A stretch of 64,000 bases of DNA, taken from positions 1 through 64,000 of the forward strand of contig JAOARV010000067.1 in assembly GCA_025210395.1 (NCBI GenBank), given 5' to 3'. Both the position numbers and the translations under genes were made by a program. Position 1 is the first letter of the stretch, and each line of letters opens with the position of its first letter. Positions 39,996-48,936 of the stretch are shown one piece after another. The notes under the pieces are model-generated. The model worked only from the letters and a program-made list of their open reading frames with translations, did no database searches and was not told where the DNA came from. The stretch comes from Marinisporobacter sp. Lineage in GTDB: Bacteria > Bacillota > Clostridia > Peptostreptococcales > Thermotaleaceae.

Positions 39996-40442
39996 CTATT
40001 CTATACTGCTATCCTCTGATTCTATCATCTCTGAATAAATAAATCTATCAATAATAATCTCTTCTATATGAGGATTATTCTTCTTTAATACGCCATGAAC
40101 AAAATCAAATAAATCATCTGATAAATTTTTATAATTTCTATTGATGTTTATAATTACATGAACCATTGGCTCACAAATATTTTCAAAGAATTTTTCTTTC
40201 ATTTCTTCATTTGGAAGTTCTGCTTTTATATATCCTTTCCATAGGGGTTGCTCCATCATCATTTTTTTATTGTTTTCTGGAGATATGTAATGAATATAAA
40301 CATCACAAATACCCTCTTCTTCTTTCGTATTACTAAAAATCCATGCTTGAGAGGTATCTGTAATAAAATGAGCATTCATATTTACAGATATTCTTTTCAT
40401 ACTCGTAATATTTTGCTTATCAATATTTAAAAATTTTAACAT
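39996..40442 (-). CDS. Hypothetical protein
   Basis: A 148-residue cytoplasmic protein, unrecognised family. The N-terminal third is beta-rich (ISVNMNAHFITDTSQAWIFSN), the C-terminal part helical and acidic. No catalytic motif, membrane segment or cysteine cluster was found. It starts 13 bases after the NA37 gene with SD AAGGAGG and is presumably co-transcribed with it, suggesting a linked role. Confidence 0.6.
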   Translation of the reverse strand: MLKFLNIDKQNITSMKRISVNMNAHFITDTSQAWIFSNTKEEEGICDVYIHYISPENNKKMMMEQPLWKGYIKAELPNEEMKEKFFENICEPMVHVIININRNYKNLSDDLFDFVHGVLKKNNPHIEEIIIDRFIYSEMIESEDSSIE

Positions 40443-40455
40443 TTTCTTCTCCTCC

Positions 40456-41496
40456 TTATCGTTCTTGAAAGCTTCTTACATTTTTTATGATAATATTAAT
40501 GGTTCCATCTCCATTTTTATAGATTTCAAATTTCATTCGATCTTCAAAATCTTCATATTCACCTTTGATCTCTATCCCTGTATCTGTTTTCATGACTCTT
40601 TTTTTCATTTTCTTTTCAACCCAAGATTTATCAATTTCAAAGGCTTCAAGCTGTAACCCTTCATTATCCATATGGTTAATAAAATTATCTTGTGCTTCTA
40701 CGTCATTGCCAAAAACATTTTGACTAAACTTTTCTACATCTATTTCTGCACAATTTTTAAAAGAAGAAATAAGCTCTTCTCTTACCTCTTGAGCTTTATC
40801 TATATCTTCCTTTAAATTTTTTCTTGTCCATTTCTCTGCAGCCTTTTTAAATAGCTTTGTCTTATCCCTATTATCTACCAAAATCTCACAATTTAAAAAG
40901 TCCTGTACAAAGAATTGAGCAATTTCCCCATCTTCATCTTTTCCATACACTTGCTTATCTAAAACAATCATATCATATTCATCGTCTTCATCTGTTTTTT
41001 TAATAAATGCACATTTTTGAAGCCTTTGACTTAGTCCTGGAAGCCCAATACTTTGAGGAATAATAGATACTTTTAATTGATCATCAATAAATTCAATATT
41101 ATGAATAAAAGATTTTTTATAATCTAATTTTAATATGCCAATATAATCTTCATCCCCTGCTGTATATGAACAAACTACTAAGTCTGAAGAAGAAATATTA
41201 TTATTTTTCTTCATAGCTTTAAATAATTGTTCTGCAATAGCCTTTGAAGATTCTACAAAAGTTTCTTCATTTTGAAATATGTTGTTACTTGCATTCTTTA
41301 CAACACTTAATCCGCCTCTAAATTTTCCTTTTCTATTTTCCTCATCCTGCAAAGATTTAATAATATGCTTTTCTAAAAATTCATGAATATCTTCATTAAT
41401 TTCCTGTTCAAAATCTGTAAGGATCGGAGCATCTCCATTTCTATCTAACACATGAATAATTGCCTTTTTTATCATGACAGCATCCGTATTTCTCAT
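40456..41496 (-). CDS. Nucleoid-associated protein, NdpA/YejK (NA37) family
   Basis: A 346-residue protein with the NdpA/YejK signature spread over its length: KKAIIHVLDRNGDAPILTDFEQEIN, LVVCSYTAGDEDYIGILKLDYKKSF, SIIPQSIGLPGLSQRLQKCAFI, DMIVLDKQ and AQFFVQDFL. Homologues bind DNA and associate with the nucleoid; their function is unclear. ATG 41496 follows GAGGAGAGGG. It is upstream of the hypothetical gene ending at 39996 and probably in one transcript. Confidence 0.85.
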   Translation of the reverse strand: MRNTDAVMIKKAIIHVLDRNGDAPILTDFEQEINEDIHEFLEKHIIKSLQDEENRKGKFRGGLSVVKNASNNIFQNEETFVESSKAIAEQLFKAMKKNNNISSSDLVVCSYTAGDEDYIGILKLDYKKSFIHNIEFIDDQLKVSIIPQSIGLPGLSQRLQKCAFIKKTDEDDEYDMIVLDKQVYGKDEDGEIAQFFVQDFLNCEILVDNRDKTKLFKKAAEKWTRKNLKEDIDKAQEVREELISSFKNCAEIDVEKFSQNVFGNDVEAQDNFINHMDNEGLQLEAFEIDKSWVEKKMKKRVMKTDTGIEIKGEYEDFEDRMKFEIYKNGDGTINIIIKNVRSFQER

Positions 41497-41659: not shown

Positions 41660-41688
41660 TTACAAATTTCTCTATTTTGCGATATAAT
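41660..41688 (+). promoter_or_regulatory. Promoter of the multidomain operon
   Basis: TATAAT (41683-41688) with TTACAA (41660-41665) at 17-base spacing; start about 30 bases before the ATG. The -35 is weak. Confidence 0.5.
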
Positions 41689-41724
41689 GTTCGTAACAAT
41701 AAATGTCATTTCAAGGAGGATTCT

Positions 41725-44700
41725 ATGAAATATTCATCAGTAATTCAATTATATGATCAACTATCTAAAAAATTATTAGATAGTAGATGGTTAAAAGAAC
41801 TATCATTAGATCAAGGCTTCATCCAAAAACATCTTACAGACCCTTCTTTTTTAGAAAATCTAAAATATATGTTTCATGATCAAAACTATAGTTGTAGTGC
41901 TGTTTTAAATTTATGTAAAAAACTCCTTAACGAACTATCCAAAAATAATGTTCCTAAGGATTGGCTTTTTTATATCTATCAATTTACCCTACAAAAGTCC
42001 TTTCCTCATGCAGTAGAAATAACCCTTAAAAGTGAGCTTGATTCTTGTTGCTATTTATATTTAGAAATTCTAAGAATGGTATCGGAATTTCAAAAATTTA
42101 CAAAGGATCCTACTTGGCAAAGTCAATATCCTTTAATTTTTTTAACACAGGAGGAAATCAACGATCTTGAAAACCCTACAGAATATGAACATTTTTTAAC
42201 TGCATTTAATGATAATTATGTTTATGAAATGATGAAGTTAAACCATGAAGTAGCAGGATACAATACAATTGATCATATATGTGGTGTTCATTATCTAGCC
42301 CTTTTTATTGCACGTCAATTGAAGAAAAGCGGTATTCCTATAGATTTAGGAAGAGTTTCTGGTGCTACAGCTGGACACGATATTGGTAAATATGGTTGCA
42401 CAAAGAATGAACAGCATAGGGTTCCTTATCTTCACTATTATTATACAGATTTATGGTTTTCTAACCAACAAATTGTTTATATTCGCCATATTGCCCTTAA
42501 TCATTCTGTGTGGGATTTAGAGCTTGAGAACCTATCATTAGAATCCCTTATATTGATTTATGCTGATTTCCGTGTAAAAAACCATCTAGATCATACCGGG
42601 AAATTTTCTATGCATATATTTAGTCTTTCAGAATCCTTTCAAGTGATTTTAGAAAAGCTTGATCATGTTAATGCAGCAAAAGAAAAAAGGTATCGCCGTG
42701 TCTATGCAAAACTAAAAGATTTTGAGGATTATATGATCCATTTAGGTATTCATGTCAATCCATCTCCTAAACAAATAATACATATCATTGAAAATAAAGA
42801 GAAAAAATTTCATTATTCTTTAATGCAGGGAAAAAAAATTGTTGATCATGTAAAATATCTTTCTATCAATCATAATATCAACCTTATGTATTCCCTTCGT
42901 AATGAATACTCCCTAGATGCAATCCTACAATTAGCACGCAGTGAAAAGGATTGGACAAATCTTCGTGAGTATCTACGAATTTTTGAAGAATACTCTACTT
43001 ATTTAACACAAAAACAAAAGCTTATTACATTAAATTTTTTATATGAAAATTTAATTCATCCAGAAGATGATATCAGAAAACATGCTGCTGAACTCATAGG
43101 TACTTTAATTGCCATGTTTGATGAAGTTTATCGAAAGGAAGTTCCAGAAAACGTAACATTGATTTCTCCAGATGTGACGAGCCTTGAATTATTAGAAAAG
43201 TATTTAAAGCTTTTTATTTTCCCTGATCATAAAATTATCCCAAAACATCGCAGATGGATTGGTTATAGTCTTAGTACTATGGTTTCATCTTTGTTTAAAC
43301 ATAGTAAAAAAAGAAATAGTTCTGAATTACTTCCACAAGCAGATGCTTATATTGACCTGCTTTTAACCTATTATGATAAACAATATTACAAGAATCAAGA
43401 TATTGCTTTTTATCTTCTTGAAACATTAAAAAATATCCCACTGATTTATGACCCTGGACACTTTACAATATTTTTCAAATTCATATTTCAAATGTTAAAG
43501 GATGAAAATGAAGTTCTAAGGGTTGCTGCTTTAGAAGCTACTTATAGATTAATCTCTCACATTCAAAACAATGATGAATTAATAGATGAACTTTCGTCAA
43601 TCCTTACAAATGGAAAGTTTTTATCAGATTGTACCACAGAAAATTTCTTAAAGATAAAAATTGCAAAAAACTTAAATAGACCCTTACTAACAAAATATAC
43701 TTCTTCCTTTGAGATCCATAAAAGTAAAATAACTTCTATGTTTTTAAGCAACTTAAAAATAGCTACAGAATATATTGTCAAGAAGGTTCAAATAGAAGTA
43801 TTATTAGAGGAAGCCCTGAAAGACCCTGAAAATCAAGGACTCCAAACAGCCCTTCATTTTTGCAACTTACTAAAAATTAGTGCATCTGATGGAATAAAAA
43901 CCCGGGCTGGTGGAGCTATTTTGGAAATCGCCCATTATTTATCCTTTGAGCAAAGAAATGAAGTAGCTGTTGAATTATTAAGTGCTCTTGAATTAGATGG
44001 ATATCAGTTTACTGAATATATTCCTCCATTTTTAGGACAATTAATCTTAATGCTTCAACCCGTAGAATTAGATGAATTGATTGATGAATTGATTGAAAAA
44101 ATCAAACAATCTAGTCCAATTCTTAGCTCATTACTTTTAAAGACCCTTGGTATTGCTATTGCTAACTATCCAAAATATGCACTTCTCTTTCATGAAGATG
44201 AAGAGTCTTTTGAAAAACGCCTCATGAAAATGCTTGGTATTTTACTAAATGGTCTTGTAAACTATAATGTAAGAGTAAAACAAGTAGCTTTTTCTGTTAT
44301 TGGTAAAGAAATATTTGGGTCAACTTACTTAAGTTTTTCTGAGAAAAATCATATTTTTCAATTTATTGCAAAAAAAATTCTTACATTGCTCACTACAAAT
44401 CAAGAAGAAACTTTATTATTCTTAGGAAATGCAGCAGCACTACATCATATATATAGATTTATTTCTGATTACATATTCTTTAAAGGAGATTACAATCTTT
44501 TTGTCCCTGAAAAAGTAGCCTTTTTCCCAGGTACCTTTGATCCATTTTCTTTAAGCCATAAACAAATTGCAAAATCCGTAAGAGATCTGGGCTTTGAGGT
44601 ATATCTTTCTATTGATGAATTTTCATGGTCAAAGCAAACATTGCCTCATTTGCTTCGAAAAAATATTGTCAATATGTCTATTGCAGATGAATTGAATATG

Positions 44701-46641
44701 TATCTATATCCAGAAGATTTTCCTACAAACATTGGAAATTCCAAGGATTTAGAAGAATTAAAGAATAATTTTCCTTCTTCTGAAGTACATATTGTTGTGG
44801 GAAGTGATGTGATTTTAAATGCTACAAGCTATCAAAATCCAAAAGAGATAGGTTCTATCCATACTTTCCCTCACATTATTTTTGAAAGAGGTCTTTCATC
44901 ACCTGCTAAGGAGGAACAAACGTCCCTTGCTCCAGCTATAAAAAGAATTGAAGGGAAAGTCAGTATTTTATCTCTTCCACCCCAATATGATGAAATTAGT
45001 TCCATCCAACTACGTAGCTATATAGATGATAATCGAGATATTTCAAGCATTGTTGATCCTTTAGCACAAAAATATATTTATGAAAATGGCTTTTACCGAA
45101 GGGAGCCTGAATACAAAACTCTTCTACAGGGTATGTCTATGAAAATTGATTTTGTCCGTCATATAAATTCAGATCTCATCAATGAATTGTCTGCTAGCTT
45201 TTATAAGGGTGTAGATTTACGTGAAAATTTATTAGATTTTTTCAAAAAACCATCCTCTAAATTATTAATCATAAGAAATATGAATCAAGGTGGGAAAATT
45301 ATAGGATTTTCTGCTCATCATCGAGTAAGACTAAATAGCCTATTCCACGATCTGAAAAATAGCAATGTTTCTGAATATATTCGAGAACACTCTCAAGGAA
45401 GAATTGTCATCATAGATGGTATCTTTTCCCTTCCTTCTAAGGAAAAAGAAAGGATTGAACAAATTTTACTTACAGAAACATTATCCTTTTGCTTATCTAA
45501 GGACTATGAATATGCCATATTTCATAATATGATAGATGGGTATATTTCCCTTTCCTTAGAAGAAATATTAAAATTACAAGGTTTTCAAAAGCTCTCTTTT
45601 AGCCATGAACAAAATCCTGTTTTCGTTGTAAATATGAGTTCTCCCTGTACATTAAATCTAGATATGGAAACCATCATCAAAGAACCATTCAAAAATAATG
45701 AAAAAGTGCTAGAAATCATCCTAAAATCAAGAAAGAAGCTTCAAAAGGCTATTACAAAGCTCTATCCAGGAAATCTTATTTTATCCTTTGATAGAGATGT
45801 ACTGTATGAAACCCTTGTAAAGAAAATTTGTGAAGAAAATAATGTACCAACGATCCCTCTATCACCTCATAAGTTAGGACCTAATATGTGTGTTCCCTTT
45901 GGAATAATCCTCAATAGAACTATTATTCCAAACACTGTAAGTAAATCTTTACACACGGAAAAACTATTTTTACCTCATATGAAGGATTTTTTAATAGGAC
46001 CCTTTCCACATTATACAGACCTTAAAACACAAATTAGAATGCTTCGTTCTTTTAATAGACCCATCATTTTAGTAGATGATATTCTTCATAAAGGTTATCG
46101 TAATAATGTGATTCATCCACTCCTTCATAAGGAAAATATAAAGGTTAAAAAGACAATTGTAGGAATCCTCTCAGCTAGAGGAAAAGAACTAATGGACCAA
46201 CAAGGTAGACAAGTGGATAGTGCTTATTATATTCCAAAACTTAAAGCATGGTTTAATGAAAATTCTATATATCCGTTTTTTGGAGGAGATACGGTATGGC
46301 GTGGTCATACCCCTCAACGAAATTTAGTACCATCCGTAAACTTAATATTACCCTATACATCTCCTTCTTTTATTAAAGATGCTTCAAAGATTTCACAATA
46401 TAATCTTTCAAAAATTTGTATTCAAAATGCAATAGAAATTTCTACAGTTATTGAAAATGAATACCACAAGCTTCATGAAAGAAAATTAACACTCGCATCC
46501 TTAGGAGAAGTATTTATATCTCCACGCTGTCCAGACCATGGTAAAAATATGCAATACGATTTAAGATTTGAACCGTCTCATTATCTACAAAATGATTTAG
46601 AACAATTGAGTCGCCTTGAACAAATCATACTTAATGAATAG
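41725..46641 (+). CDS. HD phosphohydrolase-HEAT-NadD-like-acetyltransferase-like-PRT fusion protein
   Basis: A 1638-residue cytoplasmic protein, starting at ATG 41725 (AAGGAGG). Domains: HD phosphohydrolase at about 180-285 (H184, AGHDIGKYG with H218/D219, H255, H260, D281); HEAT-like helical repeats about 400-925; NadD-like adenylyltransferase 930-1120 (PGTFDPFSLSH at 935-945; VVGSDVILNAT; ISSIQLR at 1091-1097 and ENGFY end); possible GNAT acetyltransferase about 1130-1290 (GKIIGFSAHH, IVIIDGIFSLP); phosphoribosyltransferase-like at about 1320-1560 with PRPP motif IILVDDILHKG (1447-1457). The adenylyltransferase HxGH reads SLSH. It is first of three tightly packed genes. Family function is unknown; NAD-type nucleotide metabolism is inference. 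Confidence 0.82.
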   Translation: MKYSSVIQLYDQLSKKLLDSRWLKELSLDQGFIQKHLTDPSFLENLKYMFHDQNYSCSAVLNLCKKLLNELSKNNVPKDWLFYIYQFTLQKSFPHAVEITLKSELDSCCYLYLEILRMVSEFQKFTKDPTWQSQYPLIFLTQEEINDLENPTEYEHFLTAFNDNYVYEMMKLNHEVAGYNTIDHICGVHYLALFIARQLKKSGIPIDLGRVSGATAGHDIGKYGCTKNEQHRVPYLHYYYTDLWFSNQQIVYIRHIALNHSVWDLELENLSLESLILIYADFRVKNHLDHTGKFSMHIFSLSESFQVILEKLDHVNAAKEKRYRRVYAKLKDFEDYMIHLGIHVNPSPKQIIHIIENKEKKFHYSLMQGKKIVDHVKYLSINHNINLMYSLRNEYSLDAILQLARSEKDWTNLREYLRIFEEYSTYLTQKQKLITLNFLYENLIHPEDDIRKHAAELIGTLIAMFDEVYRKEVPENVTLISPDVTSLELLEKYLKLFIFPDHKIIPKHRRWIGYSLSTMVSSLFKHSKKRNSSELLPQADAYIDLLLTYYDKQYYKNQDIAFYLLETLKNIPLIYDPGHFTIFFKFIFQMLKDENEVLRVAALEATYRLISHIQNNDELIDELSSILTNGKFLSDCTTENFLKIKIAKNLNRPLLTKYTSSFEIHKSKITSMFLSNLKIATEYIVKKVQIEVLLEEALKDPENQGLQTALHFCNLLKISASDGIKTRAGGAILEIAHYLSFEQRNEVAVELLSALELDGYQFTEYIPPFLGQLILMLQPVELDELIDELIEKIKQSSPILSSLLLKTLGIAIANYPKYALLFHEDEESFEKRLMKMLGILLNGLVNYNVRVKQVAFSVIGKEIFGSTYLSFSEKNHIFQFIAKKILTLLTTNQEETLLFLGNAAALHHIYRFISDYIFFKGDYNLFVPEKVAFFPGTFDPFSLSHKQIAKSVRDLGFEVYLSIDEFSWSKQTLPHLLRKNIVNMSIADELNMYLYPEDFPTNIGNSKDLEELKNNFPSSEVHIVVGSDVILNATSYQNPKEIGSIHTFPHIIFERGLSSPAKEEQTSLAPAIKRIEGKVSILSLPPQYDEISSIQLRSYIDDNRDISSIVDPLAQKYIYENGFYRREPEYKTLLQGMSMKIDFVRHINSDLINELSASFYKGVDLRENLLDFFKKPSSKLLIIRNMNQGGKIIGFSAHHRVRLNSLFHDLKNSNVSEYIREHSQGRIVIIDGIFSLPSKEKERIEQILLTETLSFCLSKDYEYAIFHNMIDGYISLSLEEILKLQGFQKLSFSHEQNPVFVVNMSSPCTLNLDMETIIKEPFKNNEKVLEIILKSRKKLQKAITKLYPGNLILSFDRDVLYETLVKKICEENNVPTIPLSPHKLGPNMCVPFGIILNRTIIPNTVSKSLHTEKLFLPHMKDFLIGPFPHYTDLKTQIRMLRSFNRPIILVDDILHKGYRNNVIHPLLHKENIKVKKTIVGILSARGKELMDQQGRQVDSAYYIPKLKAWFNENSIYPFFGGDTVWRGHTPQRNLVPSVNLILPYTSPSFIKDASKISQYNLSKICIQNAIEISTVIENEYHKLHERKLTLASLGEVFISPRCPDHGKNMQYDLRFEPSHYLQNDLEQLSRLEQIILNE

Positions 46642-46651
46642 GAGGAAGCTT

Positions 46652-47893
46652 ATGTTTTATTATGAATTAGAAAATAAAATATGTATCTCTCAAAAACAAT
46701 ATCCGTCTATGGACGAAATATCTGAAAACAAAGCAAAAGAAAGCAAAGGAACCATTTATTTACTCCATGAAATAGACCCTGAAATTTCTCGTAGAAGTTT
46801 TTCTGTAACAGACCCCTCCCTTGCATTTTTAGAAAAAGAAGGGATTGAACTCTTACAAAAATCAGAATCTAAAAGAGTATACCCTGATTGGTTACTCTCA
46901 CGGATCTATAAAGGAGATGTAAGGGGAATCAATACAGCTTATCCCACTTGGGAGAATGCTTTAAATTATACTTCCCCTCAGAAATGGAAAATCCATATTA
47001 CTGGTATGGGAGATGTAGGCGGAACCCTTGTAACAGGTCTTCGTTTATTGGGAGGAGAAAAAATTTCTGAAATCGGTATTTATGATAAAAATGAGCATCA
47101 CCTAAACCGTTGGGAACAAGAAATCAATCAAATTCTTTCCCCCATCCCTGATAAAAGACATCCTGAAATATCTATTCTCTCTGAGGATGAAATCTTTGAT
47201 TGCGATTTATTTATCTTTTGTATTTCTGTAGGTGTTCCCCCTATTGGAAAAGAAAAAAAAGATGTTCGAATTGCTCAATTTGAGGGAAATAAAAAAATCG
47301 TAAAAGCTTATGCAAAAATGGCACGAGAAAAGAATTTTAAAGGAATCTTTGCAGTTGTTTCAGACCCAGTAGATTTATTGTGTAAAACAGCTTTCTTAGA
47401 AAGCAATAAAGATGATGATGGTTCTTTAGACTTCAAAGGATTAGCTGCTGATCAAATAAGGGGGTATGGTCTTGGTGTGATGAATGCTCGTGCAGCTTAT
47501 TATGCCAATAAAGATCCTCATCTAAATCATTACTTAAAGGAAGGAAGAGCTTTTGGTCCTCATGGTGAAGGACTTATTATTGCAAATAGTATTGAAAACT
47601 ATCATGAAGAATGGTCCAAAGAGCTTACAGCAAAAGCTAAAACTGCAAATTTAAAGGTTCGCTCTACTGGATTTAAACCATATATTGCACCAGCTCTATC
47701 TTCTGGTAGTTTATCCATCCTTGCCACAATCACGGGGGATTGGCATTATAGTGCAAGCTTTATGGGCGGTGTCTTTATGGGTGCTAAAAATAGAAATACA
47801 CCTACGGGAATAGAATTAGAAAGATTAGCTTTACCAAGCAGTCTAGTAAATAAATTAGAAAATACCTTTAAGCTTCTAAGGAGCTTTCTATGA
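46652..47893 (+). CDS. Malate/lactate dehydrogenase-like protein
   Basis: A 413-residue protein with an extra N-terminal region of about 110 residues before a Rossmann domain of the LDH/MDH type: KIHITGMGDVGGTLVTGLRLLG (glycine loop 118-124), FCISVGVPPIGK, VVSDPVDLLCK (236-245), GYGLGVMNARAAYYAN and FGPHGEGLIIANS holding the putative catalytic histidine (304). The usual LDxxR is replaced by GVMNARAA and the mobile-loop arginines (GVPRKPGMxR) are changed, so the substrate or activity may differ. ATG 46652 follows TAGGAGGAAG, 10 bases after the first gene. Named for fold, not reaction. Confidence 0.78.
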   Translation: MFYYELENKICISQKQYPSMDEISENKAKESKGTIYLLHEIDPEISRRSFSVTDPSLAFLEKEGIELLQKSESKRVYPDWLLSRIYKGDVRGINTAYPTWENALNYTSPQKWKIHITGMGDVGGTLVTGLRLLGGEKISEIGIYDKNEHHLNRWEQEINQILSPIPDKRHPEISILSEDEIFDCDLFIFCISVGVPPIGKEKKDVRIAQFEGNKKIVKAYAKMAREKNFKGIFAVVSDPVDLLCKTAFLESNKDDDGSLDFKGLAADQIRGYGLGVMNARAAYYANKDPHLNHYLKEGRAFGPHGEGLIIANSIENYHEEWSKELTAKAKTANLKVRSTGFKPYIAPALSSGSLSILATITGDWHYSASFMGGVFMGAKNRNTPTGIELERLALPSSLVNKLENTFKLLRSFL

Positions 47894-48936
47894 AGCTACA
47901 TGTGATTATTCCCGGGGAAATATCTAGCACCCTTTCTAAGATGATTGAAGCTTCAACAAAACATTTAGACACAATCACCATAAAAAAAACTGATGCTCTT
48001 CCTAATTTAAAAAATAAAAAAATCCTCTTTGTTGTTCAGCTTAATGAATTAGGTCAAAATCATGCTTTCTTTGAAATGCTTTTAAATCTATATCAGGAAG
48101 GAATAGACACTCTCTTAGGTTCATCTGCTGGATTGATCATTCACAGCCCAAATGAACTACATACGAAGAGTACAGCACGAAACATTATTTTCTTAGCTAA
48201 TCAATTAGGATGTCGTTTTATGGGGCATCCTATGATTGAAGCAACAGGAAATTTTAATAACTTTAAAACATGGCAAAAAATTTATGACTTATCCTTAGAA
48301 GAGATTTGTCATAAGCTCTGTAAACAATTAGTTGATCGTTTGATGAATGACCATCCTTTATTCATTCACAAACCTAAAATTTTAGCACTACATTCTAGTT
48401 CCTATAAAACATCTAATACCCTTATGCTTTGGAATATGGTAAAAAAACATCTTTCTCCTTACCCTATAAAGGAATTGCATGTTGAAAACGGAACCGTAAA
48501 AGATTGCATTGGTTGTTCTTTTAAAACTTGTTTACATTATAGTAAACAAAGTAGTTGTTTTTATGGTGGCTTTATGGTAGAAGAAGTATTGCCTTCTATT
48601 GAGGAAGCAGATGGAATTATATGGCTATGTCCAAATTATAACGATGCTGTTTCAGCAAATTTGATGGCTGTCATTAATCGGTTAACATCCCTTTACAGGA
48701 AAACACCCCTTTATGATAAATCCCTTTTCTCAGTGATTGTCTCTGGAAATTCGGGTAGTGATTCTGTTGCTAAACAGCTTATTGATGCTTTGAATATCAA
48801 TAAAGGCTTTAGACTTCCACCCTATTTTGCTTTAATGGCTACAGCAAATGATCCAAAAACTGTACAATACATACCAGAAATTGAAGAAAAGGCAAAAATT
48901 TTTGCTCGAAATATTTTACATGAAACAAAAGAATAA
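47890..48936 (+). CDS. Flavodoxin-like NAD(P)H-dependent reductase family protein
   Basis: A 348-residue two-part protein. Residues 1-155 are an unrecognised alpha/beta domain (LLGSSAGLIIHSPNE; GHPMIEATGNF) of shikimate dehydrogenase or flavodoxin-like look; the C-terminal half (about 165-345) has KILALHSSSYKTSNTLMLW, DCIGCSFKTCLHYSKQSSCF with four cysteines, and ADGIIWLCPNYNDAVSANLMAVINRL, as in FMN reductases. Its ATG overlaps the dehydrogenase stop by four bases (ATGA), so the two are coupled. A redox partner for the upstream enzyme is plausible. Confidence 0.75.
   Translation: MKLHVIIPGEISSTLSKMIEASTKHLDTITIKKTDALPNLKNKKILFVVQLNELGQNHAFFEMLLNLYQEGIDTLLGSSAGLIIHSPNELHTKSTARNIIFLANQLGCRFMGHPMIEATGNFNNFKTWQKIYDLSLEEICHKLCKQLVDRLMNDHPLFIHKPKILALHSSSYKTSNTLMLWNMVKKHLSPYPIKELHVENGTVKDCIGCSFKTCLHYSKQSSCFYGGFMVEEVLPSIEEADGIIWLCPNYNDAVSANLMAVINRLTSLYRKTPLYDKSLFSVIVSGNSGSDSVAKQLIDALNINKGFRLPPYFALMATANDPKTVQYIPEIEEKAKIFARNILHETKE

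Follow-up and report, generated by a model that had tools for sequence, protein, structure and literature searches.

A conserved three-gene operon of anaerobic bacteria encodes a candidate bifunctional nucleotidyltransferase/HD protein and two oxidoreductases

What might a bacterial cell do with a single chain of 1638 residues that joins an HD phosphohydrolase-like domain, a repeat solenoid, a NadD-like nucleotidyltransferase (NTase), an acetyltransferase-like (GNAT) fold and a phosphoribosyltransferase-like (PRT) part, and whose gene is followed by two oxidoreductase genes? The question is raised by positions 41725–48936 of the window, i.e., the whole stretch of 64,000 nucleotides from Marinisporobacter sp. 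that was analysed here (contig JAOARV010000067.1 of assembly GCA_025210395.1). Reading of the sequence confirmed a self-contained operon of three genes, all on the forward strand, with ORFs, starts, the 10-base gap and the 4-base overlap just as they had been given in a first-pass annotation made from the sequence alone. Gene 1 (41725..46641, ATG at 41725), for which relatives were found, is preceded by an AAGGAGG ribosome-binding site (41713..41719, +) and by TATAAT, the putative -10 element of a presumed promoter (41683..41688, +). Gene 2 (46652..47893, +), which codes for a 413-aa LDH/MDH-like dehydrogenase with an extra N-terminal domain, starts 10 bases past the stop of gene 1 and has an AGGAGG ahead of it, while gene 3 (47890..48936, +), coding for a 348-aa FMN_red/flavodoxin-fold protein with a 160-aa N-terminal extension, overlaps gene 2 by ATGA at 47890. 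The upstream gene (40456–41496) is divergent and encodes a nucleoid-associated NA37 protein; since the gene upstream of gene 1 is divergent here as well as at most loci compared, the operon is by its layout a unit of its own. A search of 18 loci with Rfam gathering scores as the threshold gave no riboswitch. Farther upstream, the NA37 gene and an FtsH-like gene flank a 148-aa ORF (39996–40442, −) that has no Pfam match.

Full-length relatives of gene 1 (33–94% identity) were found in many genera, far beyond what chance would give, and at least 549 matching stretches were obtained by scanning a genome collection; judged by their titles, the best 80 records belong to Clostridia, Tissierellia and Atribacterota. 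Among the 67 fetched loci that had enough downstream sequence, gene 2 was next after gene 1 in 63, gene 3 came after that in 59, and both were in place in 58, while no other neighbouring gene recurred at a comparable rate. Even the most distant member (33% identity) has all three genes in the same order. We also considered 59 whole genomes (the window's own and relatives), of which 37 carry gene 1; gene 2 was present in 37/37 of these carriers and gene 3 in 34/37, whereas both were absent from all 22 genomes without gene 1, a co-occurrence that does not count independent events because the genomes are related (five further weak gene 1 matches were ordinary NadDs and were not counted). The conservation of the three genes as a set, on which the first-pass annotation depended, was thus borne out. 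Most of the genomes sampled within the order carry the system, beside ordinary genes, and it is rare outside the order (4/299 in an even sample of the phylum, the window's genome included). Some records deserve a separate mention: in two related genomes (L044:7918-13236 and L046:14954-20157) gene 1 is separated from genes 2/3 by three genes resembling parts of a split glutamate synthase and by an ammonium-transporter-like gene, and the operon (53% identity) also turns up, among Clostridia-like relatives, in a record titled 'Calditrichales bacterium MX18-03' (L053), for which a wrong name or assembly, or a transfer, is possible.

Gene 1 contains an NMNAT/NadD-type NTase (aa 926-1130, 44500..45114, +), supported by a PDB profile match to NadD 5llt across the whole domain (E 1.4e-7), a fold match to 4rpi (Z 17.8, 2.7 Å over 187 residues) and the alignment with nine housekeeping NadDs, in which the catalytic residues are kept (GxFD...H945, GSD and SSxxxR). 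The catalytic set GFDHGDSSR is complete in 129/131 full-length copies outside a clade with a lost NTase set, the other two differing at one position, and where NadD has a conserved Trp the alignment shows the aromatic residue Y1036 (131/131). Other NadD motifs are replaced (HxGH by (S/T)x(S/G)H, PPHK by SWSK, the latter within the family signature DEFSWSK, and SYT by NIAN), and the NadD model TIGR00482 (cut-off 112.45 bits) was missed by both the window's NTase (35.6 bits) and its paralogue (51.8 bits). On contig C36 of the window's genome, a NadD (189 bits) and a YqeK (164 bits) are encoded by neighbouring genes, so that the operon was rejected as the housekeeping NadD-YqeK pair, both of whose members are encoded separately in the same genome.

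The HD domain (aa 150-350, 42172..42774, +) is recognised by profile and ligands; the fold search of this part was dominated by HEAT repeats, and a PDB sequence search with the HD region gave no convincing match. PF01966 matches 37/44 members (best 2.8e-5), the window copy falling below the curated cut-off, and the ligands H184, H218-D219, H237, H260 and D281 are invariant in all 142 copies that have the HD. Most of the set proposed at first sight (H184, H218-D219, H255, H260 and D281) was therefore correct; the exception is H255, which is variable (N 73, H 57 and L 5 in 135 full-length copies) and whose place is taken by the invariant H237. The resulting ligand order is that of the diiron YqeK, H...HD...H...H...D, in which a further pair of His, placed after the HD and before the last D, makes a di-metal site (PMC8177086), and this pair (H237 and H260 in gene 1) is invariant. 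However, only the separate YqeK on contig C36 exceeds the TIGR00488 cut-off in the window's genome, and gene 1 does not. Where phosphohydrolase HDs have an Arg three residues ahead of the first His (PMC8177086), gene 1 has T181. HD-GYP features (an HH pair before the last D, the GYP motif) are absent as well, that place being occupied by NHSxWDLELENL with a single His.

Between the HD and the NTase lies a HEAT/ARM repeat solenoid (aa 370-920, 42832..44484, +; mean pLDDT 89), identified by HEAT/ARM matches and by Pfam HEAT. Two AlphaFold2 models, both of gene 1 and built from 63-sequence alignments, were confident (mean pLDDT 89.5 and 89.0); genes 2 and 3 were characterised by sequence. The possible GNAT domain of the first-pass annotation (aa 1137-1306, 45133..45642, +) is real as a fold (Z 15.1 to 5e96, 2.6 Å over 140 residues; shortened in split copies), but the acetyl-CoA loop [RQ]xxGx[GA] is present in just 2/135 copies and absent in the other 133, and GNAT catalysis is unlikely. 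A similar qualification applies to the PRPP-motif domain read from IILVDDILHKG (aa 1310-1560, 45652..46404, +; loop DDILHKGYR). It does match PRT-like proteins, through PF00156 in 28/44 members (best 2.9e-4) and through Foldseek, where Hpt (prob 0.97) was hit along with further PRTs; these hits came from the viral library alone, the general fold search of this part being dominated by NadD and GNAT matches; hhalign against seven Hpt/PyrR-like proteins aligned a local motif only (prob 20%). Its loop, mostly DD(L/I)L(H/N)KGYR in the 135 copies, ends in KGYR and departs from the canonical DDxxx[TS]Gx[TS]. Nicotinate and quinolinate PRTases have a fold other than the purine/pyrimidine-type PRT, and because the gene 1 part resembles the latter, a step in which it would make NMN is unsupported. 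Judging from these residues, both the GNAT, which is degenerate, and the PRT, which is altered, are probably binding modules. As a whole, the originally proposed domain list stood: the NTase and GNAT by fold, HEAT/ARM by matches, and the HD and PRT-like parts by Pfam profiles in relatives. The failed folds that would have counted against the first-pass annotation were not encountered, the HD and PRT parts having been searched together with neighbouring domains.

By profile, gene 2 is LDH/MDH-like (PF00056 at 29.8 bits vs a cut-off of 27; PDB profile E 7e-9). It shares with L-lactate/malate dehydrogenases the glycine-rich loop and the counterparts of LDH R109, R171 and H195 (R206, R280 and H304), and differs from them in having M277 at D168, D238 at N140 and about 110 extra N-terminal residues; these positions were mapped by motif and not by structure, and all five residues are invariant in the gene 2 alignment. 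Two gene 2 relatives (L127:7228-8187 and L128:6785-7741) lack this N-terminal extension, which is thus dispensable. Gene 3 matches PF03358 (E 5e-20), and no solved structural relative was found by profile at E 0.001. Its four cysteines C206, C209, C214 and C223 are invariant, which suggests, together with PF03358, an iron-sulfur flavoprotein. The previous reading as a flavodoxin-like reductase is to be refined, since the protein looks like an iron-sulfur flavoprotein to which a further domain has been added at the N-terminus. From the iron-sulfur flavoproteins of the FMN_red family it differs by the CX2CX4CX8C spacing and the extension of about 160 aa.

The closest indication of how the parts of gene 1 relate to each other comes from its paralogues, among which (family f2) the NTase and HD activities appear to be separated. 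HD-less copies in four genomes (G038, G363, G364 and G365) have a complete NTase set; gene 2 comes next in all of them, and then gene 3 in 3/4 cases, the fourth contig ending before that point. In the stand-alone copies of eight genomes (G038, G048, G363, G365, G381, G382, G383 and G391) every HD ligand is present and the NTase set has been lost (H945 is replaced by Q in 6/8), and genes 2/3 do not adjoin any of them in the sequence examined, the G363 copy being truncated by the end of its contig. A separate HD copy occurs in 4/4 genomes with an HD-less copy, probably reflecting one event; the one in G364 is an HD-containing fragment cut by a contig end. The HD-less and stand-alone classes form one clade each (support 1.0 and 0.999), therefore few independent split events are represented. 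According to this pattern genes 2/3 stay with the NTase while the HD may be carried by a separate chain, and, as the pattern resembles that of RelA/SpoT, the HD and the NTase would belong to the same pathway and plausibly act in opposite directions. A different kind of paralogue is found in the window's own genome (G000:C21:79446-84233, i.e., L002; also L022:8477-14240), with 54% identity to gene 1, and in the related genomes G001, G002 and G009: here the HD and NTase are both intact and genes 2/3 are absent, so the latter are not always needed. An APH/choline-kinase-like gene lies directly upstream of this second copy (with a 23-base overlap in the window's genus), and such an adjoining kinase fits a phosphorylated small molecule as the acceptor of gene 1.

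NMNAT-type NTases join an NMP to phosphomonoesters. YqeK and other HD enzymes of the di-metal kind cleave nucleotides that are linked through a diphosphate (PMC8177086), and in the mycoplasma NadD-YqeK fusion the HD removes wrong products of the NTase and thereby proofreads NAD synthesis (PMC9426524). Because of this chemistry, the YqeK-type cleavage and the precedent of the fusion, the most likely reading of gene 1 is a bifunctional synthetase/hydrolase of a nucleotide-diphosphate metabolite with the two oxidoreductases on the synthetase side, to which we give about an even chance of being right. The NTase would join an NMP, probably AMP supplied by ATP, to a small molecule that carries a phosphate; the putative two-metal HD would cleave the resulting nucleotide-diphosphate-linked compound or wrong products. 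The HEAT repeats would serve as a scaffold, and the degenerate GNAT and altered PRT would probably bind ligands and regulate. Gene 2, as a predicted NAD-dependent 2-hydroxyacid-type dehydrogenase, and gene 3, as a putative 4Fe-4S flavoprotein, would act with the synthetase half, either before it, by preparing the substrate, or after it, by reducing the product.

Several other explanations were weighed against this one. The first-pass annotation had favoured a pyridine-type dinucleotide, so that gene 1 would make, proofread or recycle NAD, NaAD or a modified NAD as a second, specialised NadD-YqeK. That an HD and an NTase in one chain recall this pair was a sound observation, as the fusion exists in mycoplasmas (PMC9426524), and the profile and fold affinity of the NTase to NadD, the aromatic Y1036 and the YqeK-like order of HD ligands all agree with it. 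Nevertheless, PPHK, SYT and the first His of HxGH, i.e., the NadD substrate motifs, are missing, and a dedicated NadD above cut-off is encoded in 57/59 genomes and a YqeK in 53/59, with or without the operon, which counts against the pyridine claim. There is also no clear association with nadA (22/37 carriers vs 10/22 non-carriers), and a link to de novo NAD synthesis was rejected because the presence of nadA does not track the operon. We thus regard a pyridine dinucleotide as a rather unlikely substrate or product. Gene 1 could also be a sensor or regulator, in which the NTase, PRT and GNAT bind nucleotides, the HD alone or no domain is catalytic, and genes 2/3 are effectors. A HEAT solenoid suits protein binding, and the PRT and GNAT loops are non-canonical in nearly all copies, but the catalytic set of the NTase hardly varies among operon copies, its decay being confined to the stand-alone clade, as expected under selection for catalysis, and this makes such a role improbable.

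The same combination of NTase, HD and protein-binding solenoid in one chain would be compatible with a reversible protein nucleotidylylation (GlnE/GlnD-like), the NTase adding and the HD removing the group and genes 2/3 being targets or partners. To our knowledge, however, NMNAT/CTP_transf-type NTases act on phosphorylated small molecules and not on proteins, and we consider such a role very unlikely. Least probable of all, and only barely conceivable, is a role in anti-phage defence or in another kind of conflict. Systems of that type do contain HD, NTase and HEAT parts, but none of the three proteins had a PADLOC match at E 0.01, no phage match was obtained, the plasmid matches traced back to one chromosome-sized record, and the operon is kept in most genomes sampled of the order, beside ordinary genes; a defence or phage origin was rejected on the PADLOC, phage and plasmid searches. 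The record in question (L134, NZ_CP154629.1) is a 2.6-Mb Acetoanaerobium noterae sequence filed as plasmid pTPELB2 in PLSDB that looks chromosomal.

Returning to the synthetase/hydrolase reading, the operon as a whole is best read as a metabolic or signalling module of anaerobes. It may even constitute a dedicated anaerobe pathway for an unrecognised nucleotide-linked cofactor or signal, which gene 1 would make and destroy, for which genes 2/3 would provide the redox steps, and of which the kinase-linked paralogue would handle a second variant, a broader proposal that we hold somewhat less firmly. The three-gene set, found mostly in Clostridia, is apparently undescribed, as no published description of the system was found in the open-access literature, and the initial remark that no ordinary pathway explains all parts still holds, given that no known pathway was found. 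A protein of this length, kept full-length in hundreds of anaerobe genomes and nearly always with two redox genes, points to a metabolite or signal so far overlooked by biochemistry, and the split paralogues offer what appear to be natural synthetase-only and hydrolase-only versions of it.

Two known systems come close. As in the mycoplasma NadD-YqeK fusion and the nadD-yqeK pair of Firmicutes, where the NTase makes and the HD cleaves diphosphate-linked nucleotides (PMC9426524), an NMNAT-fold NTase and a di-metal-type HD are brought together in one chain or operon. Gene 1 differs from these in domain order and size, in its extra HEAT, GNAT and PRT parts, in the company of two oxidoreductase genes, in the lack of the NadD substrate motifs and in its coexistence with a separate NadD and YqeK. 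With RelA/SpoT it shares the arrangement of a (putative) synthetase and an HD in one long chain, and the division, in one lineage, into paralogues with either the synthetase or the hydrolase alone, whereas its NTase fold is unrelated, its HD ligand set is another one and redox genes are added, so that the likeness to RelA/SpoT is a functional analogy only.
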